This document shows, piece after piece, positions 3,269 to 23,531 of a stretch of 23,531 nt of DNA. A program made the position numbers and the translations under genes. The notes below the pieces were generated by a model. That model saw only the letters and a list, made by a program, of their open reading frames with translations. It did no database searches and had not been told where the DNA came from. The stretch's first letter is position 1. Each line of letters begins with the position of its first letter. This DNA comes from a virus. The stretch spans positions 1 through 23,531 of IMG/VR virus record IMGVR_UViG_3300025086_000249; one strand, written 5' to 3'.

Positions 3269-3437
3269 CGACAAAGAGTGTTACGATCAGTTTCAACAAC
3301 ACATAGATGATCTAATAAATCTAAGACAACGTGCATTGGAAACAGCTAGTGAACCTCACGTCATACACAGACAGCAGGGTGCAATAGATGTACTTAGAAA
3401 ACTAAAGTTACTGAGGGAGACAGTAAACAGTGTCTGA
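3246..3437 (+). CDS. Small helical protein (63 aa), unknown function
   Basis: A 63-residue protein that starts inside the portal's last codons (23-base overlap) and ends eight bases into the next gene. AAGGA at 3231-3235 precedes ATG 3246 by ten bases. An in-frame TTG at 3261 is an alternative start. The sequence is rich in Glu, Gln, Arg and Leu with a probable two-helix layout (CYDQFQQHIDDLINLRQRAL, then HRQQGAIDVLRKLKLLRETV). It has no membrane segment. Similar short helical proteins are frequent next to portal genes of marine phages; a chaperone or connector accessory is conceivable but not shown. The two-sided overlaps and clean RBS make it a credible gene. Confidence 0.75.
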   Translation: MHLKQLVNDKECYDQFQQHIDDLINLRQRALETASEPHVIHRQQGAIDVLRKLKLLRETVNSV

Positions 3438-6400
3438 TAAAGTTGGCAAAAAGACAGGAAAGAAAACCCAAGCAGGTAAAGATGTTTACGTAACACCAGA
3501 GGGTAAAAACGTTTCTGAGATTTCTAGAACTTTTAAGTATAAAGGTAAATGGATAAATGTGCCTAGTATACATAAAGGACGTGAGTATGATCAAAAAACT
3601 TTAAAGCTAATGCTAGAAGCCGAAGTAATTAAACCAACAAGTACACATGACAGTAGAACAGAAGCAGAAGCTGCAGCAAGAGATCGTAGCGATAGATTAA
3701 AGTTTGATGAAGGTGGTATGGCAACTGAGGAAGAACGTCTTGGGTTTGTAGAATCCTATGGTGTAGAACCTGTAACAGACATAAACACTGACCTTACATT
3801 TAAAGATGCTGCTACTAGTGTAGCTGAGATGACTCCTATAATAGGAGATGCTATGGCAGCAAAAGAAGTCTATGATGAGTTGATGAAAGATGAGCCTAAC
3901 TATGGACTCATTGCTGCGCTGGGTGGTGCTGCTTTAGTTGGCGCAGTTCCGGGAATAGGTGATGCTGCTGCTGCAGGTATACGTAAAGCATCAGATATGA
4001 TAAAACGTATTGAGGTTGACCCTGATGCTGTAGGTATGATGGGTGGTAACATTAGGATAAAGCCTAAAGCAGAAGAGGGTACACCAACTGTAGAGGCTGC
4101 AGGTCTTACAGATGAAGCTATTGAAGAATGGCGTGAAAAAAATGCTACATCGGAAGAGTTTCGTAAAAAGTTAAAAGGCCGTAATGAAGAACTACAAGAG
4201 TTAGCTTCAGGAGTAGAAGAAGGTAGAGTATTTACTAGTACCTACAGAAAACGTGCTGATGAACTTAGACCGATACGTGTAGTAGAAGAAGTACCAAAAC
4301 CAGCTACATTTGTAGAAGCAGTAAGTGCATTAAATGCAGGTAAACGTAAAAAACCTATGATTGGTTTGAATGCTTCTATACCAGACGGCGATCAAGTAAC
4401 TGCAAGATTAGATATAGATGCATATACAGATTATGATGTATGGGTTCCTACTCTAACGCACCCTGAACTAAAAACAGTTTATAAACCTTCTGTTGTATTA
4501 AAAGATGTAAAGTTTATACAACCCGAAGGACGAGAGCCTAAAAAAGCTTTAGGCGTAGCTAAAGGTGGAGGTAAAGCACCTTTTGCTGTTATGTCAGGTA
4601 AGTATGTAGGTATTAAAGATGATGATGCTTTTGATCTGGCAAAAGAAGTGTTCGACTACCCTGAGTTTACACAAGTAGGTTATGATCCTACACGTAGAGG
4701 CTTTTTCTATGACAGGGAAACAGGAGAAGCAATAGTAGCGGCTGATATGGTAGTTCAGGTAGGACACCTAGTATTAGCACGTAATGCAAAAAAGATGGAT
4801 GCGGAAGCATTCCCATTTAATGAGGGCGGCATGGCACTAGAAGAACAAATGATGATGAACTTTGGAGATGTACCTGACAATACTGTGGGTATAGATCCTG
4901 TATCAGGTAATGAGATACCTTTGGGTTCTACAGCAGAAAATGTAAGGGATGATATACCAGCGCAACTAAGCGAAGGTGAAATGGTTATACCTGCTGATGT
5001 AGTTAGGTTTTTTGGTGTAAAGTTTTTTGAAGATATACGTCAGGCAGCTAAGATAGGCTACGCTAAGATGGCAGAAGATGGACGCATAGGTGGAGAACCT
5101 ATGGATATAGAAGATGAGTCTGGTCTAGGCTTAGAAATGGCTGACTTAGAAGTTATGGATGATGGCGCTCCTGTTGAAATGTACAGAGGCGGTACATCTA
5201 TGAAAGACTACAAAGATGTAGGAAAAAATAGAGCTATAAAAGCTCCTAAACGTACTGCACCACGTAAGACACACGCAGAAATAATGGCTTCAGTTTTTAG
5301 GGATGATGATAATAACTCAAGCTCATCTAGTTCTAATTCTACTTCATCTAGTTCTAAGTCTACTTCATCTGGTTCTAAGTCTACTTCATCTGGTTCTAAG
5401 TCTTCTGATTTTTATTCTCCTGAAAATATTTCTAAAAGAGTTCAGGAGAGAAAAAACAAACCCAAAACAAAGGGAGAGGCATTTTACAGGGCGCTTACAG
5501 GTTACTTATTTGACAACGAGGATGATACACCTGACAATCGTAGAGTAAAACTATATGAAAAACCCCCAATGTCTGACGATGAAAGAAGATTTGGAACTAT
5601 AGATGAACAAATAAACTTTGGAAATAACTTTGCAGACGATGAAAAAACTAAAAAAGAACCCCCTAAAGTAGAGCGTCCTAAAGTAGATAAGCGTACATCC
5701 ACAGTTCAAGATTTACGAGCAGGTGAAGATCCTTTCTTTACTAAACTATATAAAAACTCAGGATTAGAAAAGCTATATGATAAACTAACTTTTGATGAAG
5801 GTGGTGACGTAGTACAAGAAGGTACAACTGGAGGTTTTGGTGAAGAGATACCATTGGCTGACACAGGTGTTATGGAAGCTCGTGAATATCAAAACAATGC
5901 AGGTCATGTAATAATTATTATGTTCTTAGACGGTGTACCTCTTCAAGAAATACCTGAAGGTTATTACCCTGTAGGTAGTGAGCCTATTGCTGTAGATCCC
6001 GGTGAAGAGACAGGTACTAGCAGTCAAGGCGGTGGACGTAGTGATGATGATGACGATGATGACGATGATAAAGCATCAGAACCTTTTAACTATAAAACAC
6101 TTACTATAGACGAACTTACCACAGAAGTTAAAAACTTAAAAGCACCACCTCCTTTTGGCTTTGGCATACTTGGCTCTGTACTTTCTATGGCACAAAAAAG
6201 ACACAATAAGAAAACAATAGAAGAAATAGATAGAAGACTGAAAGCAACAGATCTGCCAATATATGAAAGAGAGTACTTACAAAACCTAAAAGAAGTAGCT
6301 GAAGGACCAAAAGACAAAGGAATAGTTGGTAAGATTATTGATGACCTAACAGGAGAAGAAACAGAAAAGCCTGACTTACCTACGTTAGATGGTCCTAAGT

Positions 6401-6948
6401 ATGACATGTTACCTGATAAATATGGTGTAATAGAAGGTTACACACCTGATATAGCAACACCAGATGCATCCACCTCATATCCATCATCATTAGGTCCTGA
6501 GATATTGAAGGAGATAGAGGAAGCATCTGCAGAAGCTGCTGCTAACGCCTTTAGTGGATACAAAGCTCCAGGAACAGAAGACGATGATGACGATGACGGT
6601 CCAACAATAAAGCCTACTAAACCTGCTTCTACACAAGTTGCACTTGACAATCAAAGTGCAGCAGATGCTGCTATGGGTAGACCAACAGATAGTAGTGATG
6701 ACGATGATGATGACTCGCCTACTTTTAGACCACCTGCACCTGCCCCTAAACCATCGCCAATATATGACAATGAGGCAGCAGGTGATTATGATGATGACTC
6801 AACAGGTGTCCACAAAGGTGCATTAATGGACAAACCAAAAGTTAAAAAAGTAGTCAAGGGTTTGAAGAAAGCCTCTAAGACACACGCTAAACAAGCAGAC
6901 CAATTAGAAGGAATGATGAAGAAGAAACCTAAGAAAAAATCCAAATAA
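3430..6948 (+). CDS. Large mosaic virion-region protein (1172 aa), unknown function
   Basis: Starts at GTG 3430, eight bases inside the upstream gene, with GAGG at 3413-3416. Recognisable modules, in order: a VSEIS...VNVPSIHKG-like N-terminal domain (about 19-90); FDEGGM at 92; TPIIGDAMAAK then a Gly/Ala-rich hydrophobic stretch ending PGIGDAA (about 135-183); a domain of about 160 residues ending YDPTRRGFFYDRETG and VQVGHLVLARN (about 297-456), resembling a domain of large polyvalent proteins of mobile elements; FNEGGMA at 463; VRDDIPAQLSEGEMVIPADV near 505-524; a Ser-rich repeat (about 628-660); FDEGGDV at 788; a REYQN...PEGYYPV segment (about 815-850); Asp runs of nine, six and six; and a Lys-rich C-terminus. 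These modules recur singly in structural genes of marine phages. No catalytic site is recognised. Its place between portal and scaffold suggests a virion protein, which is inference. Confidence 0.8.
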   Translation: MSDKVGKKTGKKTQAGKDVYVTPEGKNVSEISRTFKYKGKWINVPSIHKGREYDQKTLKLMLEAEVIKPTSTHDSRTEAEAAARDRSDRLKFDEGGMATEEERLGFVESYGVEPVTDINTDLTFKDAATSVAEMTPIIGDAMAAKEVYDELMKDEPNYGLIAALGGAALVGAVPGIGDAAAAGIRKASDMIKRIEVDPDAVGMMGGNIRIKPKAEEGTPTVEAAGLTDEAIEEWREKNATSEEFRKKLKGRNEELQELASGVEEGRVFTSTYRKRADELRPIRVVEEVPKPATFVEAVSALNAGKRKKPMIGLNASIPDGDQVTARLDIDAYTDYDVWVPTLTHPELKTVYKPSVVLKDVKFIQPEGREPKKALGVAKGGGKAPFAVMSGKYVGIKDDDAFDLAKEVFDYPEFTQVGYDPTRRGFFYDRETGEAIVAADMVVQVGHLVLARNAKKMDAEAFPFNEGGMALEEQMMMNFGDVPDNTVGIDPVSGNEIPLGSTAENVRDDIPAQLSEGEMVIPADVVRFFGVKFFEDIRQAAKIGYAKMAEDGRIGGEPMDIEDESGLGLEMADLEVMDDGAPVEMYRGGTSMKDYKDVGKNRAIKAPKRTAPRKTHAEIMASVFRDDDNNSSSSSSNSTSSSSKSTSSGSKSTSSGSKSSDFYSPENISKRVQERKNKPKTKGEAFYRALTGYLFDNEDDTPDNRRVKLYEKPPMSDDERRFGTIDEQINFGNNFADDEKTKKEPPKVERPKVDKRTSTVQDLRAGEDPFFTKLYKNSGLEKLYDKLTFDEGGDVVQEGTTGGFGEEIPLADTGVMEAREYQNNAGHVIIIMFLDGVPLQEIPEGYYPVGSEPIAVDPGEETGTSSQGGGRSDDDDDDDDDKASEPFNYKTLTIDELTTEVKNLKAPPPFGFGILGSVLSMAQKRHNKKTIEEIDRRLKATDLPIYEREYLQNLKEVAEGPKDKGIVGKIIDDLTGEETEKPDLPTLDGPKYDMLPDKYGVIEGYTPDIATPDASTSYPSSLGPEILKEIEEASAEAAANAFSGYKAPGTEDDDDDDGPTIKPTKPASTQVALDNQSAADAAMGRPTDSSDDDDDDSPTFRPPAPAPKPSPIYDNEAAGDYDDDSTGVHKGALMDKPKVKKVVKGLKKASKTHAKQADQLEGMMKKKPKKKSK
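5338..5400 (+). repeat. 21-bp tandem repeat, three units, coding for Ser-rich linker
   Basis: Three adjacent 21-base units (5338-5358, 5359-5379, 5380-5400) encode STSSSSK, STSSGSK and STSSGSK. Units two and three are identical and unit one differs by one base (AGT for GGT). A degenerate partial unit lies just upstream (about 5314-5337). The length is a multiple of three, so gain or loss of units keeps the reading frame. The repeat sits in a disordered Ser/Asn linker of the 1172-aa protein. Confidence 0.9.
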
Positions 6949-19266: not shown

Positions 19267-19515
19267 ATGTCTAATATTACTCCAGAAGAACTAGAAGCTA
19301 TGCTAGATCGTGCGGCAAAGCGTGGTGCTAAGATGGCATTACGTGAAGTAGGCTTGCACGATGACGATGCTCGTAAAGACATTACAGAAATGCGTAATCT
19401 TCTGGAGGCTTGGCGTGACACACGTAAAGGTGTGTGGTCAACAATAGTTAAGCTATCTACTGTAGCTATAATAACATTTATTGCAGCATCAGTATGGATG
19501 CAAATAGGGAAATAA
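19267..19515 (+). CDS. Holin candidate (82 aa, one C-terminal TM segment)
   Basis: Residues 1-55 are charged and helical (ITPEELEAMLDRAAKRGAKM, GLHDDDARKDITEMRNLLEA, WRDTRKG). A single hydrophobic segment (about 60-80, TIVKLSTVAIITFIAASVWM) ends the protein with a short tail. This arrangement resembles small phage membrane proteins that I recall as DUF6127 and that are often taken as holins. Position shortly before a wall hydrolase fits. A holin would form the inner-membrane lesion that times lysis. No Shine-Dalgarno sequence is visible before ATG 19267, and a terminator lies just upstream. Alternatives are an ejection-related membrane protein or a regulator of lysis. Confidence 0.6.
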   Translation: MSNITPEELEAMLDRAAKRGAKMALREVGLHDDDARKDITEMRNLLEAWRDTRKGVWSTIVKLSTVAIITFIAASVWMQIGK

Positions 19516-19518
19516 AAA

Positions 19519-21504
19519 ATGGCTAAAAGATTTGCAGGATTTAAGCCTGAAACATTTGAAAAGAAGATTCTCCCAGCGCTGGGTTATGATGGTCCAACAG
19601 ATATGAAATCCATCAACTTGTTCCTAGCAGCTAGTCCTGCAGCAGCAGCTAAGATGGGTAGATACACAATGGCTGCTAGACGAATGGTTGAGGGAAAACC
19701 TGTTAAAGCATCTGGTGGTAAAGATATTTTTGGAAGAGACATTGGTGGACAAGAAAAAGTAAGGGAGTTTTCTAGGTCTATAGGAACAGAGGACCCTAAA
19801 CCATCTACGTTCACAGGAACCCCAAGACCCTCCCCTATAACATCCATGCCCTTACCAACTAACGGTGCAACTAACGGTACACTAGTAGACACTACTAAGA
19901 AAGATTCTTCTGCTAGTAAGATGACGGGTAAAATAACACAAGACCCTACTAGCGTAGCAACCAAAGCTGGTGTTGTAGCCAGTACAGGTACAGGCACAAA
20001 TATAGCAACTAACACAGGTCAGGCAGGTGCAATAAATCAAGCAGGTACTACGGCTGCTGGTCCTGCTGGTGCAGTAGCACAACCTGCTACATTAACAGCA
20101 CAACAGATGCAAGCTGCAGGTGCTGCTCCGGGTATAACACAAGCTTTGTCAGGATTACAGGGCGCACAAGGACAGGTTAGCCAACAAGCACAAGTACAAG
20201 CTGCACAAGGAGATCCTAATCAATTAGCAGCATTACAACTACAGCAAGCACAGGCTCAAGCAGCACAGGTACAAGCACCTTCTGCACTACAGGCTACTCC
20301 TGATCAGTTAGTTTCTGGATCTTCTGTAGACATGGATAAAGCAGAAAGTGTACTACAAAAATCAGAAGCTGCTACAGTAAGAGATGAATTATCTGGCTTG
20401 ATGAAAGACTTTGAGGGTGGTAATACACCTTCTTGGGCTGCAGGAGCTATGAGAACAGCTACAGCAAATATGGCTGCACGTGGATTAGGGGCATCATCTA
20501 TAGCAGGTATGGCTACAGTACAGGCGGCTATGGAAGCAGCATTACCTATAGCTCAGATGGATGCAGCTAATAAGCAACAGATGGCTATGGCTAAAGCAGA
20601 GCAACGAGCTAAGTTTTTGGGCATGGAGTTTGATCAAAACTTCCAAACTAAAGTAAGAAATGCAGCTAGGATTTCTGAAGTAGCAAACTTAAACTTTACT
20701 GCTGAACAGCAAGTTGCCCTAGAAAATGCTCGTATGGCTAACACCGTTAACATATCTAACTTAGATGCTAGGAGCGCTAAAGTATTATCAGATGCTGCAG
20801 CAATGTCGCAGATGGACATGGCTAATCTAAATAGCAGACAACAGGCTCAAGTTGTTAATGCTCAAGCTTTCTTAGACATGGATATGGCTAACTTAGACAA
20901 CGATCAGCAGACATCCTTGTTCAAAGCACAACAAAGAGTTTCGGCTCTACTAAGTGATACTGCTGCAGAGAATGCATCTAGACAGTTTAATGCTACTTCT
21001 CAAATGCAAACAGATCAGTTTATGGCTAATCTTAGCACAGATGTTTCTCGCTTTAATGTAGAACAAAAGAGTGCTATGGATCGTTTCAATGCAGGTGAGG
21101 CTAATGCACAGTCTAGATTTAACGCTCAACAGGGTAATGCACGTGATGAGTTTAATGCTAAGAACCATTTAGTTGTTGCACAGGCAAACGCTCAGTGGGC
21201 GCAGTCTGTAACTACAGCAAGTAACGCTGCTATAAATCAATCTAATCGTGATGCTGCACTTGCCGCTAATAACTTGACTATGGCTGCATACAATTCAGTA
21301 GTACAGCGTGAACGTGACATGTTAGCGTGGGCTTGGAAGTCAGCAGATAATGCAGCGGAAAGAGATGCAAACGTTATGATAGCTAATATTTCTGCTAATA
21401 AAGCTGCTGAAGGTGGTAGCTTCTTATCCAAAGCTGGCTCTAAGTTCTTAGCTACTATAGGCGCATCAGCAGTCGATAAAGTATTTTTGAAGTATTTCGA
21501 TTAA
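19519..21504 (+). CDS. Internal/ejection-type virion protein with 11-residue repeats (661 aa)
   Basis: Residues 1-60 form a compact domain (FAGFKPETFEKKILPALGYD). About 75-190 is Ser/Thr/Pro/Gly-rich and disordered. About 190-260 is Gln/Ala-rich (QVQAAQGDPNQLAALQLQQA). From about 285 on it is almost entirely helical. Residues 414-556 are 13 consecutive 11-residue units, many ending in F and starting N-A (NVEQKSAMDRF, NAGEANAQSRF, NAQQGNARDEF), i.e. a hendecad helix. The C-terminus (KAGSKFLATIGASAVDKVFL) is amphipathic. Similar proteins occur in marine podoviruses as internal or structural proteins. By analogy with T7 and P22 ejection proteins it may leave the head and line a DNA conduit. That role is inferred. 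AGGGA (19506-19510) precedes ATG 19519. Confidence 0.65.
   Translation: MAKRFAGFKPETFEKKILPALGYDGPTDMKSINLFLAASPAAAAKMGRYTMAARRMVEGKPVKASGGKDIFGRDIGGQEKVREFSRSIGTEDPKPSTFTGTPRPSPITSMPLPTNGATNGTLVDTTKKDSSASKMTGKITQDPTSVATKAGVVASTGTGTNIATNTGQAGAINQAGTTAAGPAGAVAQPATLTAQQMQAAGAAPGITQALSGLQGAQGQVSQQAQVQAAQGDPNQLAALQLQQAQAQAAQVQAPSALQATPDQLVSGSSVDMDKAESVLQKSEAATVRDELSGLMKDFEGGNTPSWAAGAMRTATANMAARGLGASSIAGMATVQAAMEAALPIAQMDAANKQQMAMAKAEQRAKFLGMEFDQNFQTKVRNAARISEVANLNFTAEQQVALENARMANTVNISNLDARSAKVLSDAAAMSQMDMANLNSRQQAQVVNAQAFLDMDMANLDNDQQTSLFKAQQRVSALLSDTAAENASRQFNATSQMQTDQFMANLSTDVSRFNVEQKSAMDRFNAGEANAQSRFNAQQGNARDEFNAKNHLVVAQANAQWAQSVTTASNAAINQSNRDAALAANNLTMAAYNSVVQRERDMLAWAWKSADNAAERDANVMIANISANKAAEGGSFLSKAGSKFLATIGASAVDKVFLKYFD
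20758..21186 (+). repeat. Thirteen in-register 33-base (11-codon) repeats
   Basis: Starting at codon 414 the units NLDARSAKVLS, DAAAMSQMDMA, NLNSRQQAQVV, NAQAFLDMDMA, NLDNDQQTSLF and so on to NAKNHLVVAQA are each exactly 11 residues with no gap. Position 1 is mostly Asn and position 11 is Phe in six successive units. DNA similarity is low except for TTTAATGC/TTCAATGC at unit joints, so conservation is at protein level. Confidence 0.85.
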
Positions 21505-21520
21505 TGAGGATATAAATAGA

Positions 21521-23428
21521 ATGACATACAATCCTAGACGAACATTTGAAGCTGGTCGTGGTAGTATATATAGTAGTTACAAACCGCCATCAAGTTCTAA
21601 CGCTAATAAGCAAGCCTATCAATCAATGGCTTCTGTAGGTATAGGTGGCATGTCAGGTAAGCCTACTACGTCTTCTGCAAAAAAGATTCAGGATAGGTTT
21701 AGAAGAGAAACACAGAAAAGAAACACTGGAGGCTATGACCCAGTAGGCGGTGGTTCTGTAGATGATCCGGGATACAAAGGTCCAGGTTTAGGTTCTCCTC
21801 CAGATACTGGTGGCAGTAACAATAAAGATGACTCATCACAGGAATCTTTTATGGAAAAACTGATGAATAAAGTAAAGTCATCGTTTAACTTTGCTGGTGG
21901 TGCAACTCAAAATGAAGAACCAACAGATCCAGACCCAGTTTCTGTATATATTTCTGATGTATTTGAAATACCTACTATACAAGTAGGCTTTCCAAACCCT
22001 AACCCTATGAGGTCTGGCGAAGAAATAGCAGCAGATATTGCTAAGATGTTTGATACGAGTAAAGACAAAGGTTACTACCAATACTCAACAGAGGAAGGTA
22101 GTCGTTACGATGAGGTTCCAGCAGCTAGTGCTAACAAGAACTTAGAGGTAAACAAAACTAGAAGTGCTGTTGAAAGACTTCTAAAAGATGTTTTAGGTAC
22201 AAAGGCTAAAGAGTATAAAATAAAAAAAGGTGATACGCTATCCGAGATTGCTCTACGAGAGGGCGTTACTGTAGATGATCTTGTAAAGGTTAATGGTATA
22301 GAAAATAAGGATAGAATATACGCAGATGAAACTCTTATCATACCTAATTCTCAAGATATGGAAAAAGCAAAAGACATTGCATTAAGAGTGACAACTAGTG
22401 GTGATGAAATGGAACGCTTCGAAGGTGAAGTTGACCTAACTGATCCACAGAGCGAGTTTAATCAGTCTACTATACCAGAAGAAGATAGAGAGTTTGAACC
22501 AGAGTTAGGCGCAGAGGCACAATCTGTAACAGGATATGATGATGTACCACAAATGGTCAGAGGACTTATGTCAAAAACAAATATTGTTAAGGAAGACTTT
22601 GATACATCAGATGTTGAATCATCTCGTGTAGCTTATGAATCGGTAAAAAAGGTTCAGAAAAGATTAAATGACTTAGGATACACAACACTTGTAGGTGATT
22701 TAAAAGTAGATGGTAAGTTAGGTGGAGGAACAGCTAGACAACTAAGAAAGTTTCAAGCAACAGCAGGTCTACCTGTAACTGCTGCATCAGGACAGCCAGT
22801 TGATGAAGCTACTATGAAAGCACTAAAGAATAATAAGTTTAATAACAAAGAAGGTAAAGACTCTAAAGCTACAGTAACACCTTTGCAAGATGGACTGTTT
22901 GAAATAATAAAAGCACCTATAGCAAAGATAGAAAGCGGTGGTGAGGCTCAACCTTACGCCACAGTAGGTGGTGATGGAATGCAATACGATGGTAAATACC
23001 AGTTTGGTTGGAGGGCAAAAACGGATTTAAGAAACAATCCTGATATTACTCCTGAAGAAGCAGCTAAACTACAACAAATGCAACTCAAAGAGTTTAACAA
23101 ACTAAGTGATGAAGACAAGGCTAGAGTGGGACCACAAATACAAGCTTCACGTGCAGCTTTTAGAGATGATCCCGATCTACAAGAAAAAGTTTTTAGATTA
23201 TATGTAGATCAAAACCATGCAACATTAACTAAAAACTCTGCAAAATACAGAGCAATGGACCAAGCAAATCAACTTGCTGTTCTAGGTTATGCACACAACC
23301 AAGGTGCGGAAAACGCACTAGAGTGGTTAACTACATCCGTATCAGGAACAGATGCATTTGGTACTAAGGGAGACAAGTATTCAGAAGCAATAACAGAAAT
23401 ATTTACGAAAGATGATATGCTAGGATAG
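21521..23428 (+). CDS. Peptidoglycan hydrolase: LysM + PG-binding + lysozyme-like domain (635 aa)
   Basis: Residues 1-110 are Gly/Ser/Pro-rich and disordered. A LysM domain (YKIKKGDTLSEIALREGVTV... to LIIPN, about 232-276) binds the glycan. A PG_binding_1-type domain follows (VKKVQKRLNDLGY, LKVDGKLGGGTARQLRKFQ, about 370-445). The C-terminal lysozyme/transglycosylase-like domain (about 455-635) has a candidate catalytic Glu471 in IAKIESGG, GKYQFGW at 491-497 and QLAVLGYAHNQGAENALEWL near the end. No signal peptide is visible. It could be the endolysin released through the adjacent holin, or a virion-borne hydrolase that opens the wall at infection; the long N-terminus and the internal-protein neighbour favour the latter. 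GAGGA (21506-21510) precedes ATG 21521 by ten bases. Confidence 0.78.
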   Translation: MTYNPRRTFEAGRGSIYSSYKPPSSSNANKQAYQSMASVGIGGMSGKPTTSSAKKIQDRFRRETQKRNTGGYDPVGGGSVDDPGYKGPGLGSPPDTGGSNNKDDSSQESFMEKLMNKVKSSFNFAGGATQNEEPTDPDPVSVYISDVFEIPTIQVGFPNPNPMRSGEEIAADIAKMFDTSKDKGYYQYSTEEGSRYDEVPAASANKNLEVNKTRSAVERLLKDVLGTKAKEYKIKKGDTLSEIALREGVTVDDLVKVNGIENKDRIYADETLIIPNSQDMEKAKDIALRVTTSGDEMERFEGEVDLTDPQSEFNQSTIPEEDREFEPELGAEAQSVTGYDDVPQMVRGLMSKTNIVKEDFDTSDVESSRVAYESVKKVQKRLNDLGYTTLVGDLKVDGKLGGGTARQLRKFQATAGLPVTAASGQPVDEATMKALKNNKFNNKEGKDSKATVTPLQDGLFEIIKAPIAKIESGGEAQPYATVGGDGMQYDGKYQFGWRAKTDLRNNPDITPEEAAKLQQMQLKEFNKLSDEDKARVGPQIQASRAAFRDDPDLQEKVFRLYVDQNHATLTKNSAKYRAMDQANQLAVLGYAHNQGAENALEWLTTSVSGTDAFGTKGDKYSEAITEIFTKDDMLG

Positions 23429-23431
23429 ATA

Positions 23432-23531
23432 ATGTTTGGACTCCCACTAGAACTAATAACAATGCTTGGCTCTACCGTACTAGGTGGAGTGATGTCCATC
23501 TGGGGACAGAGCATGAAGATGAAACAAGAGC
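23432..23531 (+). CDS. Start of a small membrane protein (3' truncated by window edge)
   Basis: ATG 23432 follows AGGA (23422-23425) by six bases and opens MFGLPLELITMLGSTVLGGV then MSIWGQSMKMKQE up to the edge (33 residues seen). A hydrophobic N-terminal helix (about 3-25) followed by a charged Gln/Lys-rich stretch resembles small membrane proteins that follow lysis genes in marine podoviruses. It may belong to the lysis or ejection set; the visible part does not decide. Confidence 0.65.
   Translation, partial: MFGLPLELITMLGSTVLGGVMSIWGQSMKMKQE

Follow-up and report, generated by a model that had tools for sequence, protein, structure and literature searches.

An exact hendecad rod of quantised length in a large podovirus protein family, most likely of DNA-ejection proteins

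Phages of the HMO-2011 type rank with the most abundant viruses of the sea. A 661-residue protein with an exact 11-residue repeat, encoded at positions 19519–21504 (+ strand) of a virus record, raises the question of whether such a repeat might help the DNA of these phages to cross the cell envelope. The record (IMGVR_UViG_3300025086_000249; 23,531 nucleotides, here termed the window) carries a podovirus virion module, and its source is an HMO-2011/SU10-like podovirus, i.e. a marine short-tailed phage. Pfam and PHROG comparisons identified the end of a terminase, an SU10-type portal, a major head protein, an SU10-type adaptor, tail proteins and a 1486-residue fibre. The repeat-bearing gene, termed the rod gene in the following, comes after the fibre genes and is the probable first ejection-protein gene of a cassette. 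It is followed by a likely wall hydrolase of the same cassette with LysM, peptidoglycan-binding and lysozyme-like matches in Pfam/PHROG (21521–23428, + strand), and by the start of a small membrane protein (MFGLPLELITMLGSTVLGG...; 23432–23531, + strand), cut by the window end, which has its counterpart in CRP-207 gp42. A conserved gene of ~180 codons was found downstream of the rod gene in 83 of the 83 loci with room for it, whereas conservation of a ~500-residue downstream product was not demonstrated, with a profile match in only one of these 83 loci. Immediately upstream of the rod gene lies an 82-residue DUF6127 protein (19267–19515), and a 1172-residue protein encoded at 3430–6948, flanked by the portal gene and the gene in scaffold position, yielded weak family matches only (tape measure, 0.0007).

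The rod protein, encoded throughout on the + strand, is composed of six consecutive parts. An amino-terminal helical module (residues 1–57; 19519–19689), conserved in close relatives and predicted by AlphaFold with a pLDDT of ~65, is followed by a low-complexity linker rich in Thr, Gln, Ala and Pro (residues 58–284; 19690–20370; pLDDT mostly <50), the length of which varies among relatives, with amino-terminal lengths random modulo 11. The head module (residues 285–341; 20371–20541) is marked by the invariant columns P.WA.GA.R..A.MA.RGL.ASS, and the distance from its P.W to the Pro at the rod start is 38–39 in 150 members. The rod itself (residues 342–572; 20542–21234), delineated by a phase-profile scan and by the Pro343–Trp560 spacing, comprises 21 gapless 11-residue units. 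It leads into a post-rod helix with a WAW motif and a conserved Arg-Asp pair (residues 573–630; 21235–21408), helical in the AlphaFold2 model; the distance from the Trp to the Arg-Asp, located in 112 members, is 39 in every one of them. A short hydrophobic helix predicted by AlphaFold closes the protein (residues 633–661; 21415–21501), at the point where a Peptidase_S74 chaperone domain follows in 4 of 141 relatives.

The earlier note had placed thirteen gapless units at 20758–21186, and this register proved exact to the base (residues 414–556). Likewise, Phe occupies unit position 11 in six consecutive units (starting at residues 480, 491, 502, 513, 524 and 535), and the described Asn-Ala at the joints opens the units at 447, 491, 524, 535, 546 and 557. 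Self-identity was 0.174 at lag 11 and 0.264 at lag 22, values that none of 2000 shuffles reached, and 0.173 at lag 33 (p 0.0035), while lag 7 was not raised. Since lag 22 gave a higher value than lag 11, two types of hendecad alternate and together make up a 22-residue super-repeat. The extent of the repeat had, however, been drawn too narrowly. A phase profile trained on relatives less than 45% identical and applied in 33-residue windows placed this register at the top in each window between residues ~342 and ~572, but outside this stretch in no consistent manner; the register thus ends at ~572 and does not continue to about residue 620 as had been contemplated. With ~230 residues the rod would measure about 34 nm as an α-helix (34.5 nm at 0.15 nm per residue) instead of the proposed ~20 nm. 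The underlying DNA units have drifted apart (identity of 0.35 at 33 nt vs 0.28 for the in-frame baseline), which makes selection acting on the protein the most likely force that maintains the register.

Direct homologues of the rod protein are HMO-2011 gp25, Roseobacter phage CRP-207 gp44, Vibrio phage CHOED_013 and Sinorhizobium phage phiM6_25, and further ones occur in Aeromonas phage (MQM1_018) and in Pelagibacter phages, including HTVC115P gp47. Identities of the HMO-2011 gp25-type relatives to the window protein were 30–59% over the matched part, with CRP-207 gp44 at 59%, and tblastn gave E-values of 8e-110 against CRP-207 and 4e-81 against HMO-2011. Every named relative is annotated as hypothetical. 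This gp25 family shares with the window protein homology across head module and rod as well as the gene order, whereas its members differ in rod length, by whole hendecads; some carry S74 and some have very long amino termini. In four relatives (L031, L034, L036 and L046) the protein reaches or exceeds ~1000 residues owing to its extended amino terminus, and the ones scanned contain no known domain. We found no structure of any rod-family member, and querying the PDB sequences with a single sequence and with two profiles returned no significant match, the nearest being kinetoplastid KMP-11 at a non-significant E of 0.6. A Foldseek search with the first AlphaFold model gave a best E of 2.2, meaningless at the confidence of that model.

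Rod length could be measured across the family as the number of residues separating the conserved Pro that directly precedes the rod (LPIAQ) from the conserved Trp near its end. This spacing equals 8 modulo 11 in 157 of 157 distinct sequences, with thirteen values: 118, 140, 151, 162, 173, 184, 217, 228, 239, 283, 316, 426 and 536. A first set of 110 distinct sequences provided ten of them, all 8 modulo 11, and an out-of-sample set analyzed with frozen anchors contributed 47 more distinct sequences and the three lengths 283, 426 and 536 without exception; sequences without a findable anchor (10 in the out-of-sample scan) were excluded from the count. The rods accordingly comprise between 10 and 48 units, corresponding to lengths of about 18 to 80 nm. 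In a tree built from 79 members, at least 12 length changes are required to account for the ten lengths of the first set, and the chance that 12 successive changes all yield 8 modulo 11 is an estimated ~1 in 10^12 if all residues modulo 11 are equally likely. As controls, the distances from the Pro to the amino terminus and from the Trp to the carboxy terminus spread over all residues modulo 11. Gapless hendecads are directly visible in the viral contigs with the longest rods, 49 in L240 and 26 in L229; the 80-nm rod of L240 is longer than the usual span of a periplasm. L229 contains recent tandem duplications of 33 residues (DMTALN... in every third unit), and such unit duplication shows a route by which rod length grows. 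Besides selection, duplication of units could be a partial source of the quantised lengths.

Together with the invariant spacing, the composition of the rods, in which neither a Pro nor a Cys occurs among 34,065 residues, indicates that changes in rod length are tolerated only as whole hendecads. The large, unnamed podovirus protein family has an exact and unusually strict hendecad rod, and a rod length that proceeds in steps of three helix turns over 157 sequences and 13 length classes without exception represents a very clean natural case of a helical phase constraint. Low-complexity or disordered sequence rich in Gln, Asn and Ala, or a repeat maintained by DNA duplication alone, might be considered in view of the low AlphaFold confidence and the recent 33-residue tandem copies in some relatives such as L229; yet the register holds in every one of the 157 sequences although the DNA units of the window have diverged, and the absence of Pro from the rods speaks against disorder as well, rendering this explanation extremely improbable.

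There is a strong case that the rod is α-helical, as the earlier note had predicted. We infer the helix mainly from composition, register and the absence of Pro. AlphaFold monomer models from runs with 21 and 62 sequences likewise contained long helices at low-to-moderate confidence, with best pLDDT values up to ~75 and mean values of 47 and 59. The distribution of side chains around this helix was obtained from the family profile, with the per-phase composition computed on 41 representatives; in the window protein alone hydrophobic periodicity was not significant (p 0.15–0.2). The anticipated single hydrophobic stripe applies to the carboxy-terminal FN block, where Phe (61%), Ile/Val/Met and Leu/Trp share one side, Ala lies opposite and Asn (82%) occupies one phase. 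In the amino-terminal block, in contrast, hydrophobic residues line two opposite sides, a Leu/Met/Ile plus Ala/Leu seam facing a Met/Ala/Val plus Ala/Phe seam, while Gln (63%) occupies a phase that lies between these seams, giving a Gln-rich face. Accordingly, the expected 11/3 harmonic is present in the family but weak (z about 5), and the higher harmonics at 163.6 and 130.9 degrees per residue dominate (z 43–46). A pair of opposing seams separated by polar faces would be expected of a helix within a barrel or a sheet of helices. These profiles do not favour the lipid-binding amphipathic helix that the earlier note had considered, for which apolipoproteins, synuclein and perilipins with their 11-mer helices would be the examples. 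The 11-residue units and KMP-11 as nearest PDB match would fit such a helix, but the single-face 11/3 harmonic is weak overall and present only in the carboxy-terminal block, the window rod is near neutral (20 basic and 23 acidic of 230 residues) and Gln/Asn-rich, and lipid binding would need no common register across spacings of 118 to 536 residues. We regard this function as very unlikely.

The main rival to an ejection protein is a right-handed, hendecad trimeric coiled-coil fibre or tail needle outside the virion, comparable to the undecad trimeric adhesins. The Peptidase_S74 chaperone assembles trimers in fibres, and the domain at the carboxy terminus of the four relatives (two recognized by Pfam and the other two from their SD.RLK motif) could be read in this way, as could the stripe of Phe, Ile/Val and Leu/Trp in the carboxy-terminal block, which corresponds to the usual hendecad core. 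The rod gene moreover lies behind the genes for fibres, and in SU10 the same stretch encodes the needle gp18, so that a fibre or needle would be a possible product at this position. Trimeric coiled coils made of undecads, NadA among them, are likewise built from 11-residue units (PMC6191539), although NadA-type proteins are outer-membrane adhesins. The S74 domain, however, also occurs on proteins at the P22 gene 7 ejection position, namely PAE2_13 (PHROG 'DNA ejection') as well as RHph_Y1_10_081 and a protein of Mae-JY35 (both PHROG 'DNA ejection protein'). Since it is found both in fibres and in P22-gp7-type ejection proteins, S74 does not decide between fibre and ejection and is no proof of a fibre. 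The window protein itself has neither S74 nor a match to a receptor-binding domain in Pfam/PHROG, and the two opposite seams of its amino-terminal block are unlike a simple trimer core. Overall, a trimeric fibre appears doubtful, albeit a serious contender. The S74 proteins of Mae-JY35, RHph_Y1_10 and PAE2 are named structural or chaperone because of this domain, and a link of the relatives to phrog_6121 ('virion structural protein') was due to S74 only and vanished once the domain was removed.

Our best reading, which we hold tentatively at slightly below an even chance, is that the rod protein is the first-of-cassette ejection protein of an HMO-2011-type podovirus, with a rod that assembles into a helical tube or bundle delivering DNA. 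We have moderate confidence that the protein is in the virion and ejected, and weak confidence that an oligomer of the rod might be a tube. The label 'probable ejection protein' in the earlier note is supported by gene position and cassette synteny, while its virion proteomics check found no counterpart in the literature on HMO-2011-type phages, MQM1, CHOED and phiM6. In SU10 (Kuravirus), gp20–24 are virion proteins that are lost when the genome is released, and one of them, gp20, acts as a transglycosylase (PMC9509320). These proteins take the equivalent place in a related virion module beside a peptidoglycan hydrolase, and the matching gene position supports ejection of the rod protein. SU10 gp21 and gp22 are rich in Gln, Asn and Ala like the rod protein, but are devoid of the 11-residue periodicity and of detectable homology to it; a profile search for homology to SU10 gp12–24 was likewise negative. 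P22 gp7-type ejection proteins (phrog_598, phrog_4287) also stand first in their cassette, sometimes with a carboxy-terminal S74, and contain a loosely similar ARGLG.S motif, yet lack a hendecad rod. Homology to this type was considered and rejected, the best local match lying on the expected ARGLG.S motif with a non-significant hhalign score; hhalign probabilities against SU10 gp21/22 and P22-gp7-type proteins were below 3% in every comparison.

A model for the mechanism, rather than for family membership, could be provided by the H protein of phiX174. The tube formed by H, a decameric assembly of helices that start with three hendecads, measures 17 nm in length and is lined by amide and guanidinium groups (PMC7354561). 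Like the rod, H (PDB 4JPP) is Gln/Asn-rich, and its hendecads may be comparable to those of the amino-terminal block of the rod in having Gln at positions 1 and 8 and hydrophobic residues at 4 and 7: the rod pattern Q..[LMI]..[AL]Q matches H-tube hendecads such as QKELTKMQLDN in the same phase, with Gln1, Leu4, Met7 and Gln8 of H aligning with Gln, Leu/Met/Ile, Ala/Leu and Gln of the rod in the best phase. This match was found post hoc, with p about 0.01 for that phase and about 0.1 across all phases. No homology to H was detected (hhalign probability 0.2%), and H differs in having only three hendecads, followed by heptads, and in belonging to a single-stranded DNA phage.

Under the ejection reading, the carboxy-terminal half of the protein would form one long 11/3 α-helical rod, bounded on either side by a conserved end module. 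Gain or loss of whole units would alter the length of the rod while end modules and seams would keep their mutual rotation, because 11 residues amount to exactly three helix turns; any other insertion would be purged. Several copies, released with the DNA, may pack side by side through the seams of their rods into a helical tube or bundle, whose Gln-lined face would help to carry DNA across the cell envelope, similar to phiX174 H. The broader proposal, that the family represents a DNA-delivery family of tailed phages with an α-helical tube that evolves in length by whole hendecads, from 10 to 48 units and thereby from about 18 to 80 nm, as a counterpart of the H tube in tailed double-stranded DNA phages with a length independent of end-module orientation, strikes us as rather unlikely. 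Rods of 426–536 residues (64–80 nm) exceed the periplasm, and therefore not every rod can simply span it, as had been suggested for the window protein. This poor fit to a simple span, together with Pelagibacter phages having rods of both 162 and 316 residues within one host genus, could point to an internal ejection protein acting without a DNA tube, i.e. as a packing spacer, a ruler, a DNA-coating bundle in the head or a chain unfolded in passage. The strict register, on the other hand, suggests a folded and packed working structure rather than disordered filler, and we deem such a role unlikely.

As judged from sequence and gene order, the rod protein is thus most likely an ejection protein and possibly, by analogy, forms a helical tube. 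The family points to a cassette protein that is likely structural in delivery, and its natural series of lengths in whole units offers a way to test whether the rod acts as an adjustable rod or tube in DNA delivery. In two Pelagibacter phages, annotated enzymes lie beside the rod gene, a lysine-acyltransferase adjoining it in HTVC115P, and 2OG-Fe(II) oxygenases and a ferrochelatase as its neighbours in HTVC033P, an unusual location of cargo at the ejection cassette.
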